DNA from: Liquorilactobacillus mali
GTDB lineage: Bacteria > Bacillota > Bacilli > Lactobacillales > Lactobacillaceae
DNA: 40,875 nucleotides
Assembly (NCBI RefSeq): GCF_001437155.1
Contig: NZ_JQAR01000021.1
Location: 1-40,875 of the forward strand
Direction: 5' to 3'
Within the stretch, counting starts at the first letter, position 1. Each line of letters starts with the position of its first letter. The translations under genes and the position numbers were made by a program. This document shows positions 13,897-21,674 of the stretch, piece after piece. Under the pieces are notes generated by a model. The model did not search any database. It saw only the letters and a list, made by a program, of their open reading frames with translations, and was not told the origin of the DNA.

Positions 13897-14097
13897 TATA
13901 ATCTCCTCATTTCTTGACAGCTATGATTATGTTTTCAGAATAGCCTTAAATTAATTTACTGTAAAGCGTTTTCTACCTCAATAAACTTTCTAAACCTAAT
14001 AACTTAATTCATGTTACTTTTTATATTCTATGTAATTTTAACACAAATCAATCATAGTGTAGTAAACTTGTTTATTTTTTTTTTTTAAGTTTTGTGT

Positions 14098-14116
14098 TAT
14101 ATTACTTTTAAAGTAA
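14098..14116 (+). promoter_or_regulatory. Promoter -10 and palindromic operator of the Rrf2 gene
   Basis: TATATT (14098-14103) is followed directly by the palindrome TTACTTT-T-AAAGTAA (14102-14116), about 27 bases before the gene start. A palindrome overlapping the -10 of a regulator gene suggests autorepression. No good -35 is seen; the upstream is a T-tract (14071-14086). Confidence 0.5.
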
Positions 14117-14142
14117 CAACAGATGAAAGGAGATGCACTCTA

Positions 14143-14598
14143 ATGGCTAATAATCGTTTGAGCGACCTAATTCACATTCTAGTATATATCGAGTTGCATG
14201 ATAATCAAAAACTAACAAGCGAATTGATTGCAAGTAGTCTTAATACTAATCCTAGTCTGACACGCAGAATGATGGGACAACTGAGAAAAGCAAACTTACT
14301 TGAAACGACTCAAGGAGCGGCTTGTCCTAAGTTGGCAAAAAATCCAAATAAAATCACTATTTTCGACGTATACATGGCAACTTGTCCTGATTCTCCACTT
14401 TTAAAAGTCGATCAAAATACCTCGAAAGAGTGTCAAGTCGGTCACATTATTCCGACTATTTTAAACAAATACTATCTGGAAATTCAAAGTACCGCTGAGG
14501 CAAAAATGCGTAGAATAACCATTGCAGATATTGCTGATGATGTTAGGATGGATATTGCACATCATCAAAAAAATAGCGATACTTTTGCAAAAATTTAA
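14143..14598 (+). CDS. Rrf2-family transcriptional regulator
   Basis: A 151-residue winged-helix regulator. The N-terminal RLSDLIHILVYIELHD and the helix-turn-helix TSELIASSLNTNPSLTRRMM match Rrf2 proteins (N-x-x-x-V/L-R-R/K in the recognition helix), followed by wing GLLETTQGA-like text (here NLLETTQGAAC). Three cysteines occur (GAACPKL, ATCPDS, KECQVG), but they do not form the C-x5-C-x7-C of Fe-S-binding IscR or NsrR; it is closer to the YwnA/Cys-poor branch, whose ligands are mostly unknown. The start ATG 14143 follows AAAGGAG (14126-14132). It precedes the ABC transporter leader by only 10 bases and could regulate it or only itself. Confidence 0.85.
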   Translation: MANNRLSDLIHILVYIELHDNQKLTSELIASSLNTNPSLTRRMMGQLRKANLLETTQGAACPKLAKNPNKITIFDVYMATCPDSPLLKVDQNTSKECQVGHIIPTILNKYYLEIQSTAEAKMRRITIADIADDVRMDIAHHQKNSDTFAKI

Positions 14599-14607
14599 CA
14601 GTTATTC

Positions 14608-14636
14608 TTGACACTGAGGATAATTAACAATATACT
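14608..14636 (+). promoter_or_regulatory. Promoter of the ABC transporter operon
   Basis: TTGACA (14608-14613), 17-base spacer, TATACT (14631-14636): a near-consensus housekeeping promoter. Transcription should begin near 14643, some 275 bases before the first structural gene, leaving a long leader. Confidence 0.8.
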
Positions 14637-14670
14637 AACATCAATAATTATCGAAAGGACGAGTTTGATT

Positions 14671-14733
14671 ATGAGAAAGTCTAGTCTATTCACAGCGAAT
14701 ATTTCATGGCAAAGCCGGCATAGCGGATTGTAA
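14671..14733 (+). CDS. Possible 20-aa leader peptide with one Trp codon
   Basis: ATG 14671 is preceded by GAAAGGACGAG, an acceptable ribosome site, and the frame runs 20 codons to TAA 14731-14733. The peptide MRKSSLFTANISWQSRHSGL contains a single Trp at codon 13 (14707-14709). The frame overlaps the 5' strand of P1 and the P3 hairpin of the structured leader. If translated, it could serve as a sensor peptide for tryptophan; classical attenuators have several regulatory codons, although TnaC works with one Trp. It may equally be a chance frame in a riboswitch. Confidence 0.35.
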   Translation: MRKSSLFTANISWQSRHSGL

Positions 14734-14841
14734 TTCGTAATTACACGGATACAATCTGGCAAACAGTTTGTATCTGTGCCGACTAACTTTCTTGTATTCT
14801 AAAAGAAGTCTGCATGGGTCTACGCGGCAGGCTTTGGTTCG

Positions 14842-14877
14842 AGGGCGACCAGGCATGCTGGTTTGCCCTTTTTATTT
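14842..14877 (+). terminator. Leader terminator of the ABC transporter operon
   Basis: AGGGCGACCAG (14842-14852) pairs with CTGGTTTGCCCT (14858-14869) around loop GCATG, with one bulged T, followed by TTTTTATTT. It lies 41 bases before the first gene, so it must be conditional. Confidence 0.85.
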
Positions 14878-14917
14878 GCTCTCATTATTTATAATAAAAA
14901 ATGGGGAGATTTTAATT

Positions 14918-15925
14918 ATGAAAAGACTTTATGGCTTTATTGCAGCATTAGTTATATTTTTAGGGGTAGCCTTTTTTATGACACAAAATAATTCATCAAA
15001 TACAGCAACGACAAAGAAAAAAATACCTACTGTTGGAATTTTGCAATTAATGACTCATCCCGCACTCGATCAGATCCATAAGGGATTTGTAGCTGGTTTA
15101 AAGGAATATGGTTATACACCCGGTAAAAATATCAAAATTGATTTTCAAAATGCACAAGGTGATCAGAGCAATTTGAAAACTATGAGTACTAAATTTTCAA
15201 ATGAAAAAGTATCACTAATGGCAGGAATCGCTACACCTGCAGCGCAGGCTCTAGCTAATGTTGCTGGTAAAAAAACACCTGTTATCCTTGCGGGTATAAC
15301 TAATCCATCAGGGAGCGGCTTAGTTAAGACAGATAAGCATCCTGGGGCTAACATTACTGGTACTTCAGGTGAATCTCCTCTAGAAAAACAATTGGCATTG
15401 ATAAAGACAGTCATGCCTAATGCTAAAACAATTGGTATTATCTACACATCTTCTGATCATGGTGGCACATACAATGCAAAGAAGTTCGCAGCACTTTGCA
15501 AAAAAGAAGGAATAAACTATAAACTCTATACTATTTCAGGCACCAATGATATGCAGCAAGTTGCTGAACAAATGGTTTCACAAGTGGATGCTGTCTATGC
15601 ACCTCAAGACAACGAAGTAGCTGCAGCCATGAAAACTTTGGTTGAAGTTGCTAACAAATCTAAGATTCCTGTTTTTGCAGCCGCTGATACAATGGTCAAA
15701 GACGGCGGTCTTGCATCATATGCAATCAGTCAATATAAATTAGGTAAAGTTGCTGGTGAAATGGCTGCACAAGTTCTTCGCGGTAGAAAAACTGCGAATT
15801 TCCCAGTTAAATATATTACTAAAGGTGAATATGTAATCAATACAAAGGAAGCTAAACTATTGGGAATCACATTACCCGATGATATTGTCAAACAGGCACA
15901 AAGCAGAGGAGAAGTTTTCAAATGA
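14918..15925 (+). CDS. ABC transporter substrate-binding protein (TrpX/COG2984 type)
   Basis: A 335-residue binding protein of the COG2984 (DUF534) family, which in lactobacilli and streptococci is usually annotated as tryptophan-binding TrpX. It has an N-terminal hydrophobic segment (about 5-22, YGFIAALVIFLGVAFFM) but no lipobox cysteine, so it is probably membrane-anchored rather than a lipoprotein. Family landmarks are VGILQLMTHPALDQIHKGF, ATPAAQALAN, GITNPSGSGLV, TGTSGESPLEKQLALI, GIIYTSSDHGG and YAPQDNEVAAAM. The start ATG 14918 follows GGGGAGA; an upstream extension of the frame runs through the terminator and is not real. It is the first gene of a three-gene operon. The substrate is inferred from the family only. 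Confidence 0.9.
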   Translation: MKRLYGFIAALVIFLGVAFFMTQNNSSNTATTKKKIPTVGILQLMTHPALDQIHKGFVAGLKEYGYTPGKNIKIDFQNAQGDQSNLKTMSTKFSNEKVSLMAGIATPAAQALANVAGKKTPVILAGITNPSGSGLVKTDKHPGANITGTSGESPLEKQLALIKTVMPNAKTIGIIYTSSDHGGTYNAKKFAALCKKEGINYKLYTISGTNDMQQVAEQMVSQVDAVYAPQDNEVAAAMKTLVEVANKSKIPVFAAADTMVKDGGLASYAISQYKLGKVAGEMAAQVLRGRKTANFPVKYITKGEYVINTKEAKLLGITLPDDIVKQAQSRGEVFK

Positions 15926-16824
15926 GTATGATTGTCTCAAGTATTGGTCAAGGCCTCTTGTGGGCCATATTAGGAGTTGCTTTATTTTTAACGTTCCGTA
16001 TCCTGAATTTTCCAGATATGACTGTTGAAGGAACATTCCCACTGGGTGCTGCCGTAACAACGGCTACGATTACACGTGGTGTTTCTCCTTTTCTAGCGTG
16101 TATTCTTGGATTCGTCGCCGGAGCAGTTGCAGGCTTATTAACTGGTTTGCTGTATACCAAGGGCAAGATTCCTATCTTACTAGCTGGAATTCTCGTAATG
16201 ACAGCTTGTCTGTCCATCAACTTGAGAATCATGGGCGGTTCCAATATTTCTCTTTTAGGAAAACAGACTATTTTCTCAAATCATTTTCTTGAATCACTTC
16301 CTAAATATTTTGATAGTGTTTTCGTTGGACTAGTCACAGTAGCAGTCATCACTATCTTATTAATGCTCTTTCTTCAGACCGAATTGGGACAGGCGTTCAT
16401 AGCAACCGGTGACAATCCAATGATGGCCCGTTCGTTAGGAATTAACACTGATTCCATGACCATTATGGGACTAATGCTCTCTAATGGAATTATCGGCCTT
16501 GGCGGTGCTCTAATCTCACAAAGTAATGGCTATGCAGATATTAACATGGGGATAGGGATCATTGTAATCGCACTTGCATCAATCATTATTGGAGAAGTGG
16601 TCTTTGGTGAATTAACGCTTAATCAAAGGTTAATTGCGGTAACCTTAGGAAGTATTATCTATCGTTTTGTCATTTTGATTGTCTTACAGCTTGGGTTCAG
16701 TACAAACGACCTCAACTTATTATCGGCAATAATCTTAGCTCTTTGCTTAATGTCACCTGTATTAGGGAAAAAACTAAAGTTGACTAAAGTGCTGGCTAAA
16801 GGAGGTCTCAAGAATGCAAAATAA
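15922..16824 (+). CDS. ABC transporter permease (TrpY/COG4120 type)
   Basis: A 300-residue membrane protein with about eight to nine spans, related to branched-chain amino acid type permeases (LivH fold). It begins SSIGQGLLWAILGVALFLTF and carries RILNFPDMTVEGTFPLGAAV, a conserved segment of COG4120 permeases. GDNPMMARSLGINTDSM near residue 170 is the cytoplasmic loop expected to touch the ATPase, and LSNGIIGLGGALISQ follows. Its ATG overlaps the stop of the binding-protein gene (ATGA), so the two are translationally coupled. It forms the pore of the importer with the adjacent ATPase. Confidence 0.92.
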   Translation: MSMIVSSIGQGLLWAILGVALFLTFRILNFPDMTVEGTFPLGAAVTTATITRGVSPFLACILGFVAGAVAGLLTGLLYTKGKIPILLAGILVMTACLSINLRIMGGSNISLLGKQTIFSNHFLESLPKYFDSVFVGLVTVAVITILLMLFLQTELGQAFIATGDNPMMARSLGINTDSMTIMGLMLSNGIIGLGGALISQSNGYADINMGIGIIVIALASIIIGEVVFGELTLNQRLIAVTLGSIIYRFVILIVLQLGFSTNDLNLLSAIILALCLMSPVLGKKLKLTKVLAKGGLKNAK

Positions 16825-17593
16825 ACCAATTCTTTCTCTTAAAAATATCGTTACAACTGTGAATGCTGGAACTCCTTCTGAGAATGTTATTTTGAATAAT
16901 CTGAACCTCAATGTCCATCGTGGGGACTTCATCACAGTTTTAGGATCAAATGGTGCTGGTAAATCTACCCTTTTCAATACAATTGCTGGTAATCTTGCAA
17001 TAACTAGTGGACAAATCCTACTAAATGAAAGGGATATTGCAAAAGAAACCGTTGAAAAAAGAGCACGCTACTTAGGCAGAGTTTTCCAAGATCCTAAAAT
17101 GGGCACGGCTCCTCGAATGACTGTCGCAGAAAACTTGAATTTAGCGCTTCGCCGAGGAAGTTCTCGTAACCTAACACTTCGCCATTTAAATAAGCACAAA
17201 TCACACTTTAAGGAATTAACTAGTACCATGAGTAATGGGTTAAATACTAAGTTAGATGTTGCCACTGAAAACCTTTCTGGTGGTCAAAGACAGGCACTCA
17301 GTTTTTTGATGGCCATTATCCAAAAGCCGGAACTGCTGTTACTTGATGAACATACGGCCGCATTAGATCCTAAAACAAGCTTTCAACTAATGGAAGAAAC
17401 AAATAAAACAATCTCCGAGCAGCACCTAACATGCTTGATGATTACACATCACTTAGATGATGCACTAAAATATGGAAATCGCCTAATTGTTTTAGATAAA
17501 GGCAAGGTTGTTTTTGATGTTGCTGGTCCAGAAAAGGAAAAATTAACCAAAGAACAGCTGCTGAGCTTCTTTAATGACTTGGTCGAAGTATAA
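16814..17593 (+). CDS. ABC transporter ATP-binding protein (TrpZ/COG1101 type)
   Basis: A 259-residue ATPase that powers the importer. Walker A GSNGAGKST (about 44-52), Q-loop in GRVFQDPKMGTAP, signature LSGGQRQALS (about 154), Walker B LLLLDEHTAALD and switch His in MITHHLDDAL are all intact. DEHTAALDPKT is characteristic of the COG1101 ATPases paired with COG4120 permeases. The start ATG 16814 overlaps the end of the permease gene by 11 bases and has AAAGGAGG upstream inside that gene. A strong terminator follows at 17627-17672, closing a binding protein-permease-ATPase operon that holds no biosynthetic gene. Confidence 0.95.
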   Translation: MQNKPILSLKNIVTTVNAGTPSENVILNNLNLNVHRGDFITVLGSNGAGKSTLFNTIAGNLAITSGQILLNERDIAKETVEKRARYLGRVFQDPKMGTAPRMTVAENLNLALRRGSSRNLTLRHLNKHKSHFKELTSTMSNGLNTKLDVATENLSGGQRQALSFLMAIIQKPELLLLDEHTAALDPKTSFQLMEETNKTISEQHLTCLMITHHLDDALKYGNRLIVLDKGKVVFDVAGPEKEKLTKEQLLSFFNDLVEV

Positions 17594-19010: not shown

Positions 19011-19967
19011 TTAGTGATATTTTCTCATTAACTCAGCCAGATGAACTTGTTGTGTGACAAATTCATGAGTACGACACACGTAATCATGTTCACGACCGAT
19101 TTTTGCGATGTATCCATTAATATAATCAACTTCTGTAGGTCTTCCCTTAGAAAAATCTTGATACATTGAAGGATAATGATACTTAAGTGCATGACTTGTA
19201 GTCGTAACTGAGTCAATTTCCTCTTGCCTCGTTTCAATCAGATAAATTCCAGCTCGCTCACAGGCATCATACGCTTCGTCAAACAATTGACGTGCCATCT
19301 GGGGAACACCTTCATACTCAATAAACTGTCCCATTTGGACTTCGAACATCGTACACAAAGTGTTAACAACAGCATTGAAAACCACTTTTGACATACACAT
19401 TCCAAGATAATCCTCAACGACAATTGGTCCCAAATAGGCTCTTTTTAAATCTGTTACAAATTCTTCAGCATCTTCAGGAATACTCTTGCTTGCATACATG
19501 GCAAGATGCATGACTTCTGCACCCTTTTTCCCCATAAAATCAACATCTGCTGGACCATCCAGTCTCGTTGCAATCATAGCAGTACCACAAATTATCTTCT
19601 CAGGAGCAAAGTATTGTGCAATTTTTTCAAAATGTCCCATCCCATTCATTGCGGAAAAAACATATTGATCGTCGTGAAAAAGTCCAGCCTTAGCATCACG
19701 TGCAAGCTCTTCTTCCAACTGCATCTGTTTTTTAAAAACTATCCATACATCAGGATGGCCTTGATACTCTTCTGGATAATAAATATTGATTGGAACAACC
19801 CTCCGATTTTCATGATCTCTAGCTACAGAAACACCACCTAATTCGCGAACTTTTTCTACATTTGGTTCCCATGTATCAATGAAATCGACCTCAACACCTG
19901 CATTTTCCTGCAACATAACACCATAACGATAACCCATTGCACCCGCACCAATAATTCCATACTTCAT
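19011..19967 (-). CDS. Ketopantoate reductase-family NAD(P)H oxidoreductase (paralog A)
   Basis: A 318-residue member of the PanE/ApbA family. The nucleotide site is GIIGAGAMGYRYG (G-x-G-x-x-G) at the N-terminus; the C-terminal helical domain has the catalytic Lys in MCMSKVVFNAVVNTLC (family K-x-x-x-N) and an RPTEVDYINGYI segment. In Lactococcus a PanE homolog reduces branched 2-keto acids to D-hydroxy acids. Here T-box control argues for a role in amino-acid-derived keto acids rather than pantothenate. ATG 19967 follows AAAGGAG. Its T-box and promoter lie at 19998-20302, back to back with those of paralog B. Confidence 0.9.
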   Translation of the reverse strand: MKYGIIGAGAMGYRYGVMLQENAGVEVDFIDTWEPNVEKVRELGGVSVARDHENRRVVPINIYYPEEYQGHPDVWIVFKKQMQLEEELARDAKAGLFHDDQYVFSAMNGMGHFEKIAQYFAPEKIICGTAMIATRLDGPADVDFMGKKGAEVMHLAMYASKSIPEDAEEFVTDLKRAYLGPIVVEDYLGMCMSKVVFNAVVNTLCTMFEVQMGQFIEYEGVPQMARQLFDEAYDACERAGIYLIETRQEEIDSVTTTSHALKYHYPSMYQDFSKGRPTEVDYINGYIAKIGREHDYVCRTHEFVTQQVHLAELMRKYH

Positions 19968-19997: not shown

Positions 19998-20043
19998 CAA
20001 AAAACACCCCTAGATTGATTGCATCATCAACCCAAGGGCGTTC
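19998..20043 (-). terminator. T-box terminator of paralog A
   Basis: On the minus strand AACGCCCTTGGG... pairs with ...CTAGGGGTGTT, followed by TTTTTT. It overlaps the end of the T-box element, as expected for a transcriptional T-box switch. Confidence 0.85.
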
Positions 20044-20268
20044 GTAAACGCGGTACCACCTTTTTTGAACTAAAAAAGTTCATCTTAACGGAAATAACAA
20101 AATTGTCTTTCCAGCTTTATAATGGAAGTATCCATCTCGCCTCTAAAAGCAAGCTCTCAAATGCGACTCTCGTAAAACAGTTTTGATATGTTTACACCAC
20201 CACATACTCTCTAAGCAAAACTGAGTCATTAATATTCACATTTGAATAAATTTAGTCTATCAATATTG
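20000..20268 (-). promoter_or_regulatory. T-box leader of paralog A
   Basis: The minus strand carries the T-box core AAGGTGGTACCGCG (complement of 20049-20062). Stem I has a lower helix TTCAAATGTG/CGCATTTGAG, an upper helix CAGTTTTG/CAAAACTG and a conserved distal part (AGAGAG ... GGTG). The variable base in TGGT is T, which pairs with discriminator A73. The unpaired 3' side of the specifier loop reads TTTTACGAG, so TAC (Tyr) is my best guess; TTT (Phe) cannot be excluded. Uncharged cognate tRNA would stabilise the antiterminator and switch on the reductase gene. Confidence 0.88.
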
Positions 20269-20403: not shown

Positions 20404-20690
20404 CATATTAAAAAAAAATGAGATAGCGTGTTGAAGAGAAGCTTTATTAATTAGATGGATTTAGCGAGCCTAATCTTGGTGAAAGTAGGTATCCTAGGTT
20501 AATAAAAATCATCTCTGAGCGTAGTGATCGAAACTCGTAATGAGTAATAAATCACTTTGGGAGCACCCACTATAGTGCTGACGAATTGATTTTTAGTTCG
20601 AATAAAGGCTCACTGTTGTGAGTGAATAAAAGGTGGTACCACGCGAAGGCGTCCTTTAGACATTTGTCTATTGGATGTCTTTTTTTATCT
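20404..20690 (+). promoter_or_regulatory. T-box leader of paralog B
   Basis: The T-box core AAAGGTGGTACCACGCG lies at 20629-20645. The stem I distal part is AGCGAG (20463-20468) ... GGTGAAAG, with CCTA/TAGG and GGAT/ATCC helices, and a lower helix TTTATTAA (20443-20450) / TTAATAAA (20499-20506). The 3' side of the specifier loop then reads AATCATCTCT, suggesting ATC (Ile) followed by the usual purine. The discriminator-pairing base is T (A73), compatible with Ile. A stem III hairpin CTCAC/GTGAG (20610-20622) precedes the T-box core. The specifier is a reading by eye and tentative. Confidence 0.88.
20646..20687 (+). terminator. T-box terminator of paralog B
   Basis: AAGGCGTCC (20646-20654) pairs with GGATGTCTT (20673-20681) using two G-T pairs, followed by TTTTTTT. 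It is mutually exclusive with the antiterminator formed by the T-box core. Confidence 0.85.
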
Positions 20691-20729
20691 TCAACATCTA
20701 TCTTACAAAAACATATAGGAGGAATCTTC

Positions 20730-21674
20730 ATGAAATTTACAGTATTAGGTTCAGGTGCAATGGGTTATCGTTATGGTGTTTTACTCCAAGAAGCAGGCAA
20801 CGATGTTGAATTCGTTGATGCTTGGGAACCGAATGTTGAAGCAGTCAGAAAACAAAACGGTGTCTTTGTTTCGCGTGATCATGAAAATAAGCGGCTCGTC
20901 CCTATTAAAATGTTCTATCCGGAGGAATACACAGGCAATCCTGATGTATGGGTAGTTTTTGCAAAACAAATGCAGCTTGAAAATCTACTTCAACGAATGG
21001 CACCTAAGTTCAACGAAAATCAGTATGTTTTAACATGTATGAATGGCATGGGTCATGTTGAAAAACTGTTGAATTATTTTAAACCTGAAAAATTAATTGC
21101 TGGTACTGCCCTTGTTGCCACAGTGCTAAATGGACCTGGAGATGTTGATTTCATTGGTGCCCGTGGAGCCGGAACAATGAATTTAGCAAATTATACTGAA
21201 AAACCTGACGAGATGACACACAAAATCGTGACAGAACTTGAAAAGTCACAATTCAACCCGACTCTAACTACCAACTTTTTAGGAACTTTGATGGCAAAAG
21301 TGGTCTTCAATTCTGTTGTCAATACACTGTGCACCCTCTTTGAAATTACCATGGGAGAGTTTGCAAGCTATCCTGGTGCCGACGAACTGAGTCGTCAATT
21401 GATTAATGAAGCATATGATGTCTGCGAACGTGCGAATATTACTATGATCAATTCACGACAAGAGGAACTAGATAGTGTTAACTATGTGTCAAAGGTTGCT
21501 AATCCACTACATTATCCTTCAATGTATCAGGACATGTCACACAATCGCCCAACTGAAGTGGATTACATCAATGGCTATCTTGTTGAGTTAGGTAGAAAAT
21601 ATCGTTATGAAGCTTCTACTCACGCATTCTTGACTCATTTGGTCCATTTAGCAGAACATACAAGACATCATTAA
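20730..21674 (+). CDS. Ketopantoate reductase-family NAD(P)H oxidoreductase (paralog B)
   Basis: A 314-residue PanE/ApbA-family reductase, clearly paralogous to the divergent gene at 19011: both share GAMGYRYGV, WEPNVE, RDHEN, PEEY-x-G, PDVW, KQMQLE, MNGMGH, KVVFN and RPTEVDYINGY. The dinucleotide motif is VLGSGAMGYRYG; the catalytic Lys is in LMAKVVFNSVVNTLC. ATG 20730 follows ATAGGAGG; the frame extends upstream only through the T-box and terminator. By analogy with lactic acid bacterial D-hydroxyisocaproate dehydrogenases of this family, it probably reduces a 2-keto acid from an amino acid, with NAD(P)+ regeneration. A terminator follows at 21712-21757. Confidence 0.9.
   Translation: MKFTVLGSGAMGYRYGVLLQEAGNDVEFVDAWEPNVEAVRKQNGVFVSRDHENKRLVPIKMFYPEEYTGNPDVWVVFAKQMQLENLLQRMAPKFNENQYVLTCMNGMGHVEKLLNYFKPEKLIAGTALVATVLNGPGDVDFIGARGAGTMNLANYTEKPDEMTHKIVTELEKSQFNPTLTTNFLGTLMAKVVFNSVVNTLCTLFEITMGEFASYPGADELSRQLINEAYDVCERANITMINSRQEELDSVNYVSKVANPLHYPSMYQDMSHNRPTEVDYINGYLVELGRKYRYEASTHAFLTHLVHLAEHTRHH

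Follow-up and report, generated by a model that had tools for sequence, protein, structure and literature searches.

The leader of the trpXYZ operon of Liquorilactobacillus mali is, with a probability of roughly 87% as judged from its sequence, a ribosome-mediated transcription attenuator of a tryptophan transporter operon. It lies in a window of 40,875 nucleotides (the whole stretch of DNA that was analysed) and carries a tiny upstream open reading frame (uORF) with a Trp codon together with hairpins that exclude one another; given this combination, it is most likely read by a ribosome. By its alignments the leader is a divergent homologue of the Rfam family RF04312, the trpB motif, that falls outside the family threshold. 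A broader proposal, whose odds are about even, is that, instead of being riboswitches, RF04312 and its relatives form one homologous attenuator chassis, programmable by codons and found across Lactobacillales, in which the uORF codons would set the specificity (Trp, Tyr, Phe, mixed aromatic or His) while the RNA relay is kept. Liquorilactobacillus would add two segments to this chassis, giving a seven-segment domino (1:2/3:4/5:6 ON versus 2:3/4:5/6:7 OFF).

An initial annotation of this DNA had described a promoter, a basal stem, an 8-bp stem and a conditional terminator in front of a TrpX-type transporter, and all are found where it had placed them (Table 1); the product of the first gene passes the NCBIfam cut-off for TrpX. 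The region 14590-14930 contains five promoter-like sites, compared with a mean of 1.0 in shuffled sequences, and transcription would start at about 14643. The leader ends 41 bases 5' of the trpX ATG (14918), and its fold (-79.7 kcal/mol) is stronger than those of its shuffles (-56.5 kcal/mol, sd 4.54; z -5.11), none of 200 of which equals it. Conservation and covariation, whose absence had been named as grounds for giving up the annotation, are both present: the leader is kept in 14 of the 14 searched genomes of the genus, and both the basal stem and helix 3:4 covary. Three elements had been overlooked, namely the uORF at 14671-14733 that follows a Shine-Dalgarno (SD) sequence, two exclusive hairpins that share 14745-14758, and a sub-threshold match to RF04312. 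As to the sensor, the annotation had offered two guesses; the evidence favours the peptide attenuator and leaves the new riboswitch class unsupported.

Table 1. Features of the trpXYZ leader and operon, with positions in the window
Feature	Position	Strand	Remarks
Sigma-70-type promoter, TTGACA-17-TATACT	14608..14636	+	11/12 consensus positions
Shine-Dalgarno sequence of the uORF, GAAAGGA	14653..14659	+	GAAGGGA in 7/14 genus members
uORF, leader peptide MRKSSLFTANISWQSRHSGL and stop	14671..14733	+	14/14 genus genomes; ATG-to-TGG stretch free of indels
Basal stem, 12 bp, 5' strand over uORF codons 2-6	14674..14686	+	pairs with 14781-14792
Trp codon TGG, proposed sensing codon, then invariant CAAAGCC	14707..14709	+	TGGCAAAGCC invariant in 14/14
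Post-Trp segment 0'	14716..14723	+	pairs with 14774-14781, the 3' end of segment 3
Segment 1	14724..14738	+	pairs with segment 2 (hairpin 1:2)
Segment 2, left arm of P1	14745..14758	+	pairs with 1 or 3
P1 apical loop, GGCAAAC	14758..14764	+	complements terminator 3' arm, 14861-14867
Segment 3, right arm of P1, proposed antiterminator GUAUCUGUGCCGACU	14764..14784	+	pairs with 2 or 4
Segment 4	14805..14817	+	pairs with 3 (antiterminator) or 5; homologue of RF04312 terminator 5' arm
Hairpin 4:5, 8-9 bp	14805-14813 with 14827-14835	+	
Segment 5	14825..14839	+	pairs with 4 or, as proposed, 6
Terminator hairpin 6:7	14843..14868, T-run 14869-14873	+	TTTGCC, C/T, then TTTTT in 14/14
trpX, substrate-binding protein, tryptophan ABC transporter	14918..15925	+	NF041285, 460.4 bits (cut-off 390); PF04392
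trpY, permease	15922..16824	+	PF02653
trpZ, ATPase	16814..17593	+	PF00005

The uORF is uniform within the genus. In all 14 genomes an SD sequence is present, the distance from ATG to TGG is exactly 36 bases and Trp is codon 13 (other examples are MGKFNLANLNSSWQSRHCGL in L006, MVEISLNNLHTAWQSRLSRL in L012 and MKNFSLNELNLAWQSQ in L014); in 13 of the 14 the frame runs four codons past WQSR. The uORF of the window has one Trp codon. The leader shows one mark of an attenuator, namely a short SD-led ORF that encodes the regulated amino acid close to its stop. Synonymous change within the genus is only slightly in excess in the uORF frame (0.188, versus 0.125 and 0.145 in the other frames), and across three sets from outside the genus this excess is inconsistent.

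No Rfam family matches anywhere in the window at gathering level. The initial annotation had stated that the leader lacks the T-box core, and indeed the T-box model (RF00230) gives no match at the leader, either at gathering level or at E<=10 over 14590-14930; outside the leader, this model matches the genome 33 times at E<=0.001, with 9 of these matches above the cut-off. A T-box identity of the leader is ruled out by the absence of this match. For the other known Rfam classes, nine weak matches were obtained at E<=10, and the alignment makes biological sense for RF04312 only. This match, seen with a permissive threshold, has 20.5 bits (E 1.5) and so falls short of the RF04312 gathering cut-off of 59; at E<=0.001 there is no RF04312 match in the window's own genome, and a scan of four loci of the genus at E<=0.5 yields a match in L012 only (32.5 bits). 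The description of the leader as unrecognised thus holds as far as the Rfam cut-off goes and fails in that the leader is a homologue of RF04312.

The homology is seen best with a covariance model, R1, that contains no member of the genus. R1 was built from 34 loci of other genera that were filtered for a WQSR uORF and a TrpX-like substrate-binding protein (SBP), and because of this filter the model includes that stretch. (The alignment A2 holds 34 of the 37 distinct loci that pass the filter; L079, L098 and L122 are omitted.) At 14707-14843 of the window R1 scores 63.1 bits (E 8.6e-13), and it gives the 14 leaders of the genus 58.9-73 bits; in the whole genome the leader is its only match at E<=0.001 (E 2.1e-11). 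Across the family, R1 has a match at E<=0.001 in 106 of 151 genomes and 30 of 40 genera. Hairpin 4:5, which is the terminator elsewhere in RF04312, has no U-run in the window leader, and the terminator here is one hairpin further 3'. Five other members of the genus (with loci L020, L023, L027, L032 and L039) carry, in addition to the divergent trpX leader, an RF04312-type attenuator with Trp codons before trpB, with a peptide such as MKFTFNIWQSWRS.

The loci of RF04312 itself were located by the RNA model alone, with uORFs disregarded. The 162 loci collected are not a random sample: they consist of the 62 best-scoring and 100 picked by hand among the matches listed, or, by source, of 109 of the 122 matches of one search and about 50 among the matches listed of another. 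Matches that look false (L075, L076, L125, L134 and L135 and, among the later 20, L265-L267 and L271) were kept in the counts, and the loci are related, so that the counts are not independent. The genes that follow encode a TrpX-like SBP in 120 of the 162 and trpB in 10.

An SD-led short ORF lies upstream in 137 of 142 RF04312 loci, and in 129 it contains Trp. Among 141 distinct loci, an SD-led Trp uORF is present in 128, compared with 9.4% of 5,640 dinucleotide shuffles, and Trp lies within the last 10 residues in 127, compared with 6.4% of the shuffles. When the ATG is chosen by the best SD sequence with its frame ignored, it is in frame with the TGG in 121 of the 122 distinct loci that could be scored, where one third would be expected; the sole exception is L081. 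(The input to this test was the 162 loci, 27 of which have no TGG anchor; the rest of those unscored are duplicates or have no SD-led ATG.) L024 has TGGCAAAGCCGG without an SD-led start. The peptides often end in QLNNRWQSR in Lactobacillaceae and in LNSWQNWRR in other families, and in 64 of the 129 Trp uORFs there is a single Trp codon. The stretch modelled in Rfam starts at P1, a median of 16 nt 3' of the uORF stop (128 loci), and the uORF is consequently outside the RF04312 model.

Another mark of an attenuator is that the uORF codons follow the regulated pathway, and they do so here. Trp codons go with TrpX and trpB. Tyr leaders (L113 and L252-L255; for example, a peptide ending in NHSYYYGYFG) and Phe leaders (L121, ending in RTFFAGFFFG; L133 and L259, ending in NNSFFFGFFR) stand before relatives of TrpX, and three of these eight SBPs that were scanned (those of L113, L121 and L259) score 307.6, 320 and 349.5, in all cases under the TrpX cut-off of 390. 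(The Phe uORF of L133 was missed by the script and found by eye.) A tree was made from 69 of the 134 SBPs (14 from the genus, 47 others with Trp leaders, mostly drawn at random, and all 8 with Tyr or Phe leaders) by a quick method that gave long-branch warnings. One of its branches, with a support of 100, separates all eight SBPs with Tyr or Phe leaders from those with Trp leaders. The leader types need only two changes on this tree, which is the minimum for three types, and the SBPs with Phe leaders do not by themselves form one group. In one genome, G236, both kinds occur before different SBPs, the Tyr leader being L113 and the Trp leader L126. The Tyr-Tyr-Trp-Phe leader MRTSNLNPTTRYYWFS occurs at L109 and L256; L109 is followed by genes for transketolase (tkt), DAHP synthase, aroB and aroD, which open the pathway to all three aromatic amino acids. 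At L018, which scores 62.2 bits and so is over the Rfam cut-off, the His-His-His leader MFKSNVTLHHHLHR precedes a basic amino-acid/polyamine antiporter, and at L074, which is from outside the order and under the Rfam cut-off, a Phe-rich uORF precedes a sodium symporter. Such swaps are predicted by codon reading, unlike by an aptamer for a single ligand.

Several further leaders were observed and left out of this count or stand apart from it. Weak RF04312 matches have a Ser-rich uORF before serC (L119) and a Leu-rich uORF before a lactate/hydroxy-acid dehydrogenase gene (L129); these are possibly further amino-acid specificities or a look-alike attenuator. (L119 figures in the Trp counts because its peptide has one Trp.) The uORF of L131 has no Trp and precedes an SBP_bac_3 protein. 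L108 and L111 have the Trp/Tyr leaders MDLRYEPTSWQVWYIS and MNLRYEQTSWQVWYIS; the first long ORF after L108, with a product of 383 aa, has no NCBIfam match at E<=0.001 and no Pfam match at E<=1e-10.

The third mark of an attenuator, a set of mutually exclusive helices that link the uORF with an antiterminator and a terminator, is also present. Within the genus (14 sequences), support is strongest for the basal stem, in which 5 of 12 pairs have changes on both sides, and for 3:4, in which 100% of cells are paired and one pair is compensated. It is weak for 1:2 (14 pairs, 96.9% of cells paired, zero double changes) and for 5:6, which can be drawn in 14 of 14 members at -7.8 to -12.5 kcal/mol and has no native preference (-9.9, versus -10.0 with cross-species partners and -7.0 when shuffled). 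The result for 0':3 is mixed, since its score is reached by 6 of 500 shuffles and its pairing by 278 of 500. In the 34 aligned loci from outside the genus, 6 of the 12 pairs of 3:4 change on both sides, and none of 500 shuffles scores as high; 1:2 covaries weakly (28 of 500 shuffles reach its score, and 292 of 500 its count of double-change pairs). A stem of the 0':3 type appears in the RNAalifold consensus of the 34 relatives from other genera, and the counterpart of the basal stem across the wider family is a pairing of the SD-start region with the region after P1.

These pairings were also compared by duplex energy in the 128 loci with Trp in the last 12 uORF residues, using native, cross-locus and shuffled segments in turn; the count in brackets gives the loci, of 128, whose native pair beats 90% of its cross partners. 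The values are -13.6, -8.5 and -5.9 for 1:2 (77), -9.9, -6.8 and -6.7 for SD-start:post-P1 (60), and -11.8, -9.9 and -6.8 for 3:4 (28), which is a moderate preference. For 2:3 (-17.9, -11.2 and -6.3; 84) and 4:5 (-19.3, -10.7 and -6.7; 110) the arms were cut from the native fold, so that these two are favoured by construction. Three control pairings are at chance (8, 16 and 9). When 0' is taken from 3 nt past the start of the TGG, 0':3 gives -14.1, -11.5 and -8.1 (34); taken from 12 nt, it has no native preference (-7.1, -7.0 and -6.5; 5).

The initial annotation had pointed to exact complementarity between the loop GGCAAAC (14758-14764) and GTTTGCC (14861-14867) in the terminator arm, and this is correct; both are invariant in the 14 aligned genus members, and for that reason they offer no covariation evidence either way. 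As the main switch this pairing was demoted to a possible genus-specific antiterminator because of this invariance and because the ON state computed with it is weak. A second proposed pairing, GGTC with GACC, amounts to 4 bp only.

From the uORF and its frame, the Trp codon, the alternative helices, the homology to RF04312 and the function-matched codon swaps, all of which can be read in the sequence, we infer where the ribosome would stall and how the signal would reach the terminator. The ribosome would translate the leader peptide while the polymerase is still within the leader. A ribosome at the stop codon would cover the RNA to about 14743, and one waiting at the TGG would cover it to about 14719; with these edges, segment 1 would be covered at the stop and free at the TGG, and segment 2 would be free in both cases. 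With ample Trp-tRNA, the ribosome would reach the stop (14731) with its footprint over segment 1; 2:3 (P1), 4:5 and then the terminator 6:7 would form, and transcription would end. When charged Trp-tRNA is scarce, the ribosome would stall with the TGG (14707) in its A site and would mask 0', which could otherwise capture segment 3. Segment 1 would then be free to pair with 2, and because 1 pairs with 2, segment 3 would be left for 4; the chain would move by one (1:2, 3:4, 5:6) and the operon would be read. If the leader is not translated, segment 3 would be held by 0':3 and by the basal stem that covers the uORF start, which would favour termination. The footprint argument is approximate, since only 73 of 128 loci leave 12 nt or more between the last Trp codon and the start of the segment 1 strand.

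In the genus, the relay from 4:5 to the displaced terminator would pass either through 5:6, which keeps the parity of the relay, or through pairing of the P1 loop with segment 7. P1 (-19.8) is thermodynamically stronger than 1:2 (-14.6), and the ON state would therefore need kinetics. The computed states are -34.7 for ON with 5:6, -25.8 for ON with loop:7 and -45.7 for OFF, so that by energy alone OFF beats both ON variants; with 1:2 and 3:4 formed, 6:7 is still possible (-36.3).

The published reading of the trpB motif is that of a riboswitch. The paper that describes the motif (SRC-39-1; Nucleic Acids Res. 2024, PMC11109978) ranks it among the strong riboswitch candidates and counts more than 900 representatives, located mostly before an ABC transporter that resembles amino-acid transporters. 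It has a separate category for uORFs and places the trpB motif among the riboswitch candidates; its authors were unable to exclude a protein factor or a classic attenuator. No claim of leader-peptide attenuation for the trpB motif was found in the titles and openings of abstracts of open-access papers on the motif or on leader-peptide attenuation of Trp genes in lactobacilli; subscription papers may contain one. On the riboswitch reading, P1 and its stems would form an aptamer that binds tryptophan or a related metabolite and acts on the terminator independently of ribosomes. The ranking of the motif, its entry in Rfam as Cis-reg, the strong fold of the leader and the nearly invariant P1 of the genus agree with this. 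It is nevertheless improbable: it leaves unexplained both the in-frame Trp uORF and the change of its codons to Tyr, Phe, His or Tyr-Tyr-Trp-Phe along with the downstream gene, the P1 loop varies in both size and sequence among the 34 outside loci, and the conserved stretches are largely accounted for by the alternative pairings.

A nascent peptide could instead be arrested by free Trp, as in TnaC, with a stall at the stop codon that covers segment 1 and leads to termination. The peptides have features that would suit such an arrest (Gln directly follows Trp in 108 of the 122 distinct Trp uORFs, and in 57 of the 122 Leu-Asn lies at most six residues before Trp, with several different Leu codons), and a stall at the stop codon would likewise terminate transcription in high Trp. 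TnaC-type arrest peptides have conserved C-terminal residues before the stop, and TnaC stalling switches its operon on. Neither corresponds to the case here: the uORF peptides found among 142 RF04312 loci have no common last residue (R, W, S, Q, K, H, V, L and others are found), and a stall at the stop codon of this leader would end transcription. The Tyr, Phe and His swaps and the mixed aromatic leader also fit codon reading better than a binding pocket, and an arrest of this kind, which in TnaC depends on Trp (PMC8429421), is considered very unlikely. The Leu-Asn lead, which is seen as Gln-Leu-Asn in seven of the eight Tyr/Phe leaders, may still aid stalling through the nascent peptide. A protein-bound attenuator of the TRAP or LacT kind at P1, with an incidental uORF, is most unlikely of all, as the uORF is present and in frame far above chance, its codons follow gene function and no repeats were seen by eye, even though a protein factor is left possible in PMC11109978.

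Beside the trpXYZ operon, the window has a gene for an Rrf2-family regulator (PF02082) at 14092-14598, on the same strand and directly 5' of the promoter. Two divergent T-box leaders lie at 20031-20256 (-) and 20422-20659 (+), with 91.2 and 85.1 bits just under the cut-off of 93, and each precedes one of two similar genes, 19011-19967 (-) and 20622-21674 (+), which look by eye like relatives of ketopantoate reductase.

RF04312 itself as a class of codon-programmable attenuators, which has even chances of being right, would be a wider and more interesting result than the window leader. If true, a published orphan riboswitch candidate known from more than 900 representatives would turn out to be a leader-peptide attenuator, the search for its ligand would be over, and Trp leader-peptide attenuation would be common in an order where T-boxes are often named as the control of amino-acid operons. 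The natural Trp, Tyr, Phe and His swaps on one RNA scaffold provide a ready test of whether specificity lies in the codons only, and the leader sequence would predict substrates for TrpX-like transporters that lack an assignment.

Among known systems, the window leader resembles RF04312 in having a post-Trp segment, P1, an antiterminator in the right shoulder of P1 and a following hairpin, as well as the same kind of downstream transporter; RF04312 loci in turn carry the same kind of W-Q uORF just 5' of the modelled stretch. It differs in its score, in the hairpin 4:5 without a U-run that is followed by a second, true terminator, and in the four codons beyond WQSR. The trpL, his and ilv leaders of E. 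coli likewise combine a short SD-led uORF, in which the amino acid under control is encoded a few codons ahead of the stop, with alternative hairpins and a terminator; unlike them, the present leader has an extra layer of pairing, and the stalled ribosome would free segment 1 to pair with 2 rather than block segment 1. The same kind of operon, trpXYZ, is described in Streptococcus suis as controlled by a Trp T-box that is ON at low Trp through conditional termination (PMC9382623), but there the sensor is a tRNA-binding RNA, whereas the window leader has no T-box match. His leader peptides, described in bacilli (PMC2965389) and in the Bacillus cereus group, Eubacteriales and Erysipelotrichales (PMC9413887, which states that the his genes of Lactobacillales are usually under T-box control), are likewise Firmicutes leader-peptide attenuators that replace T-boxes, though for His only and in other orders. 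The nearest precedent, compared here by its description, is the ilvB-II motif of Corynebacterium, which differs from the window leader in genes, phylum and codons; like the trpB motif, it had been considered a riboswitch candidate (PMC11109978), and it has been reported as a uORF attenuator (PMC10272879).
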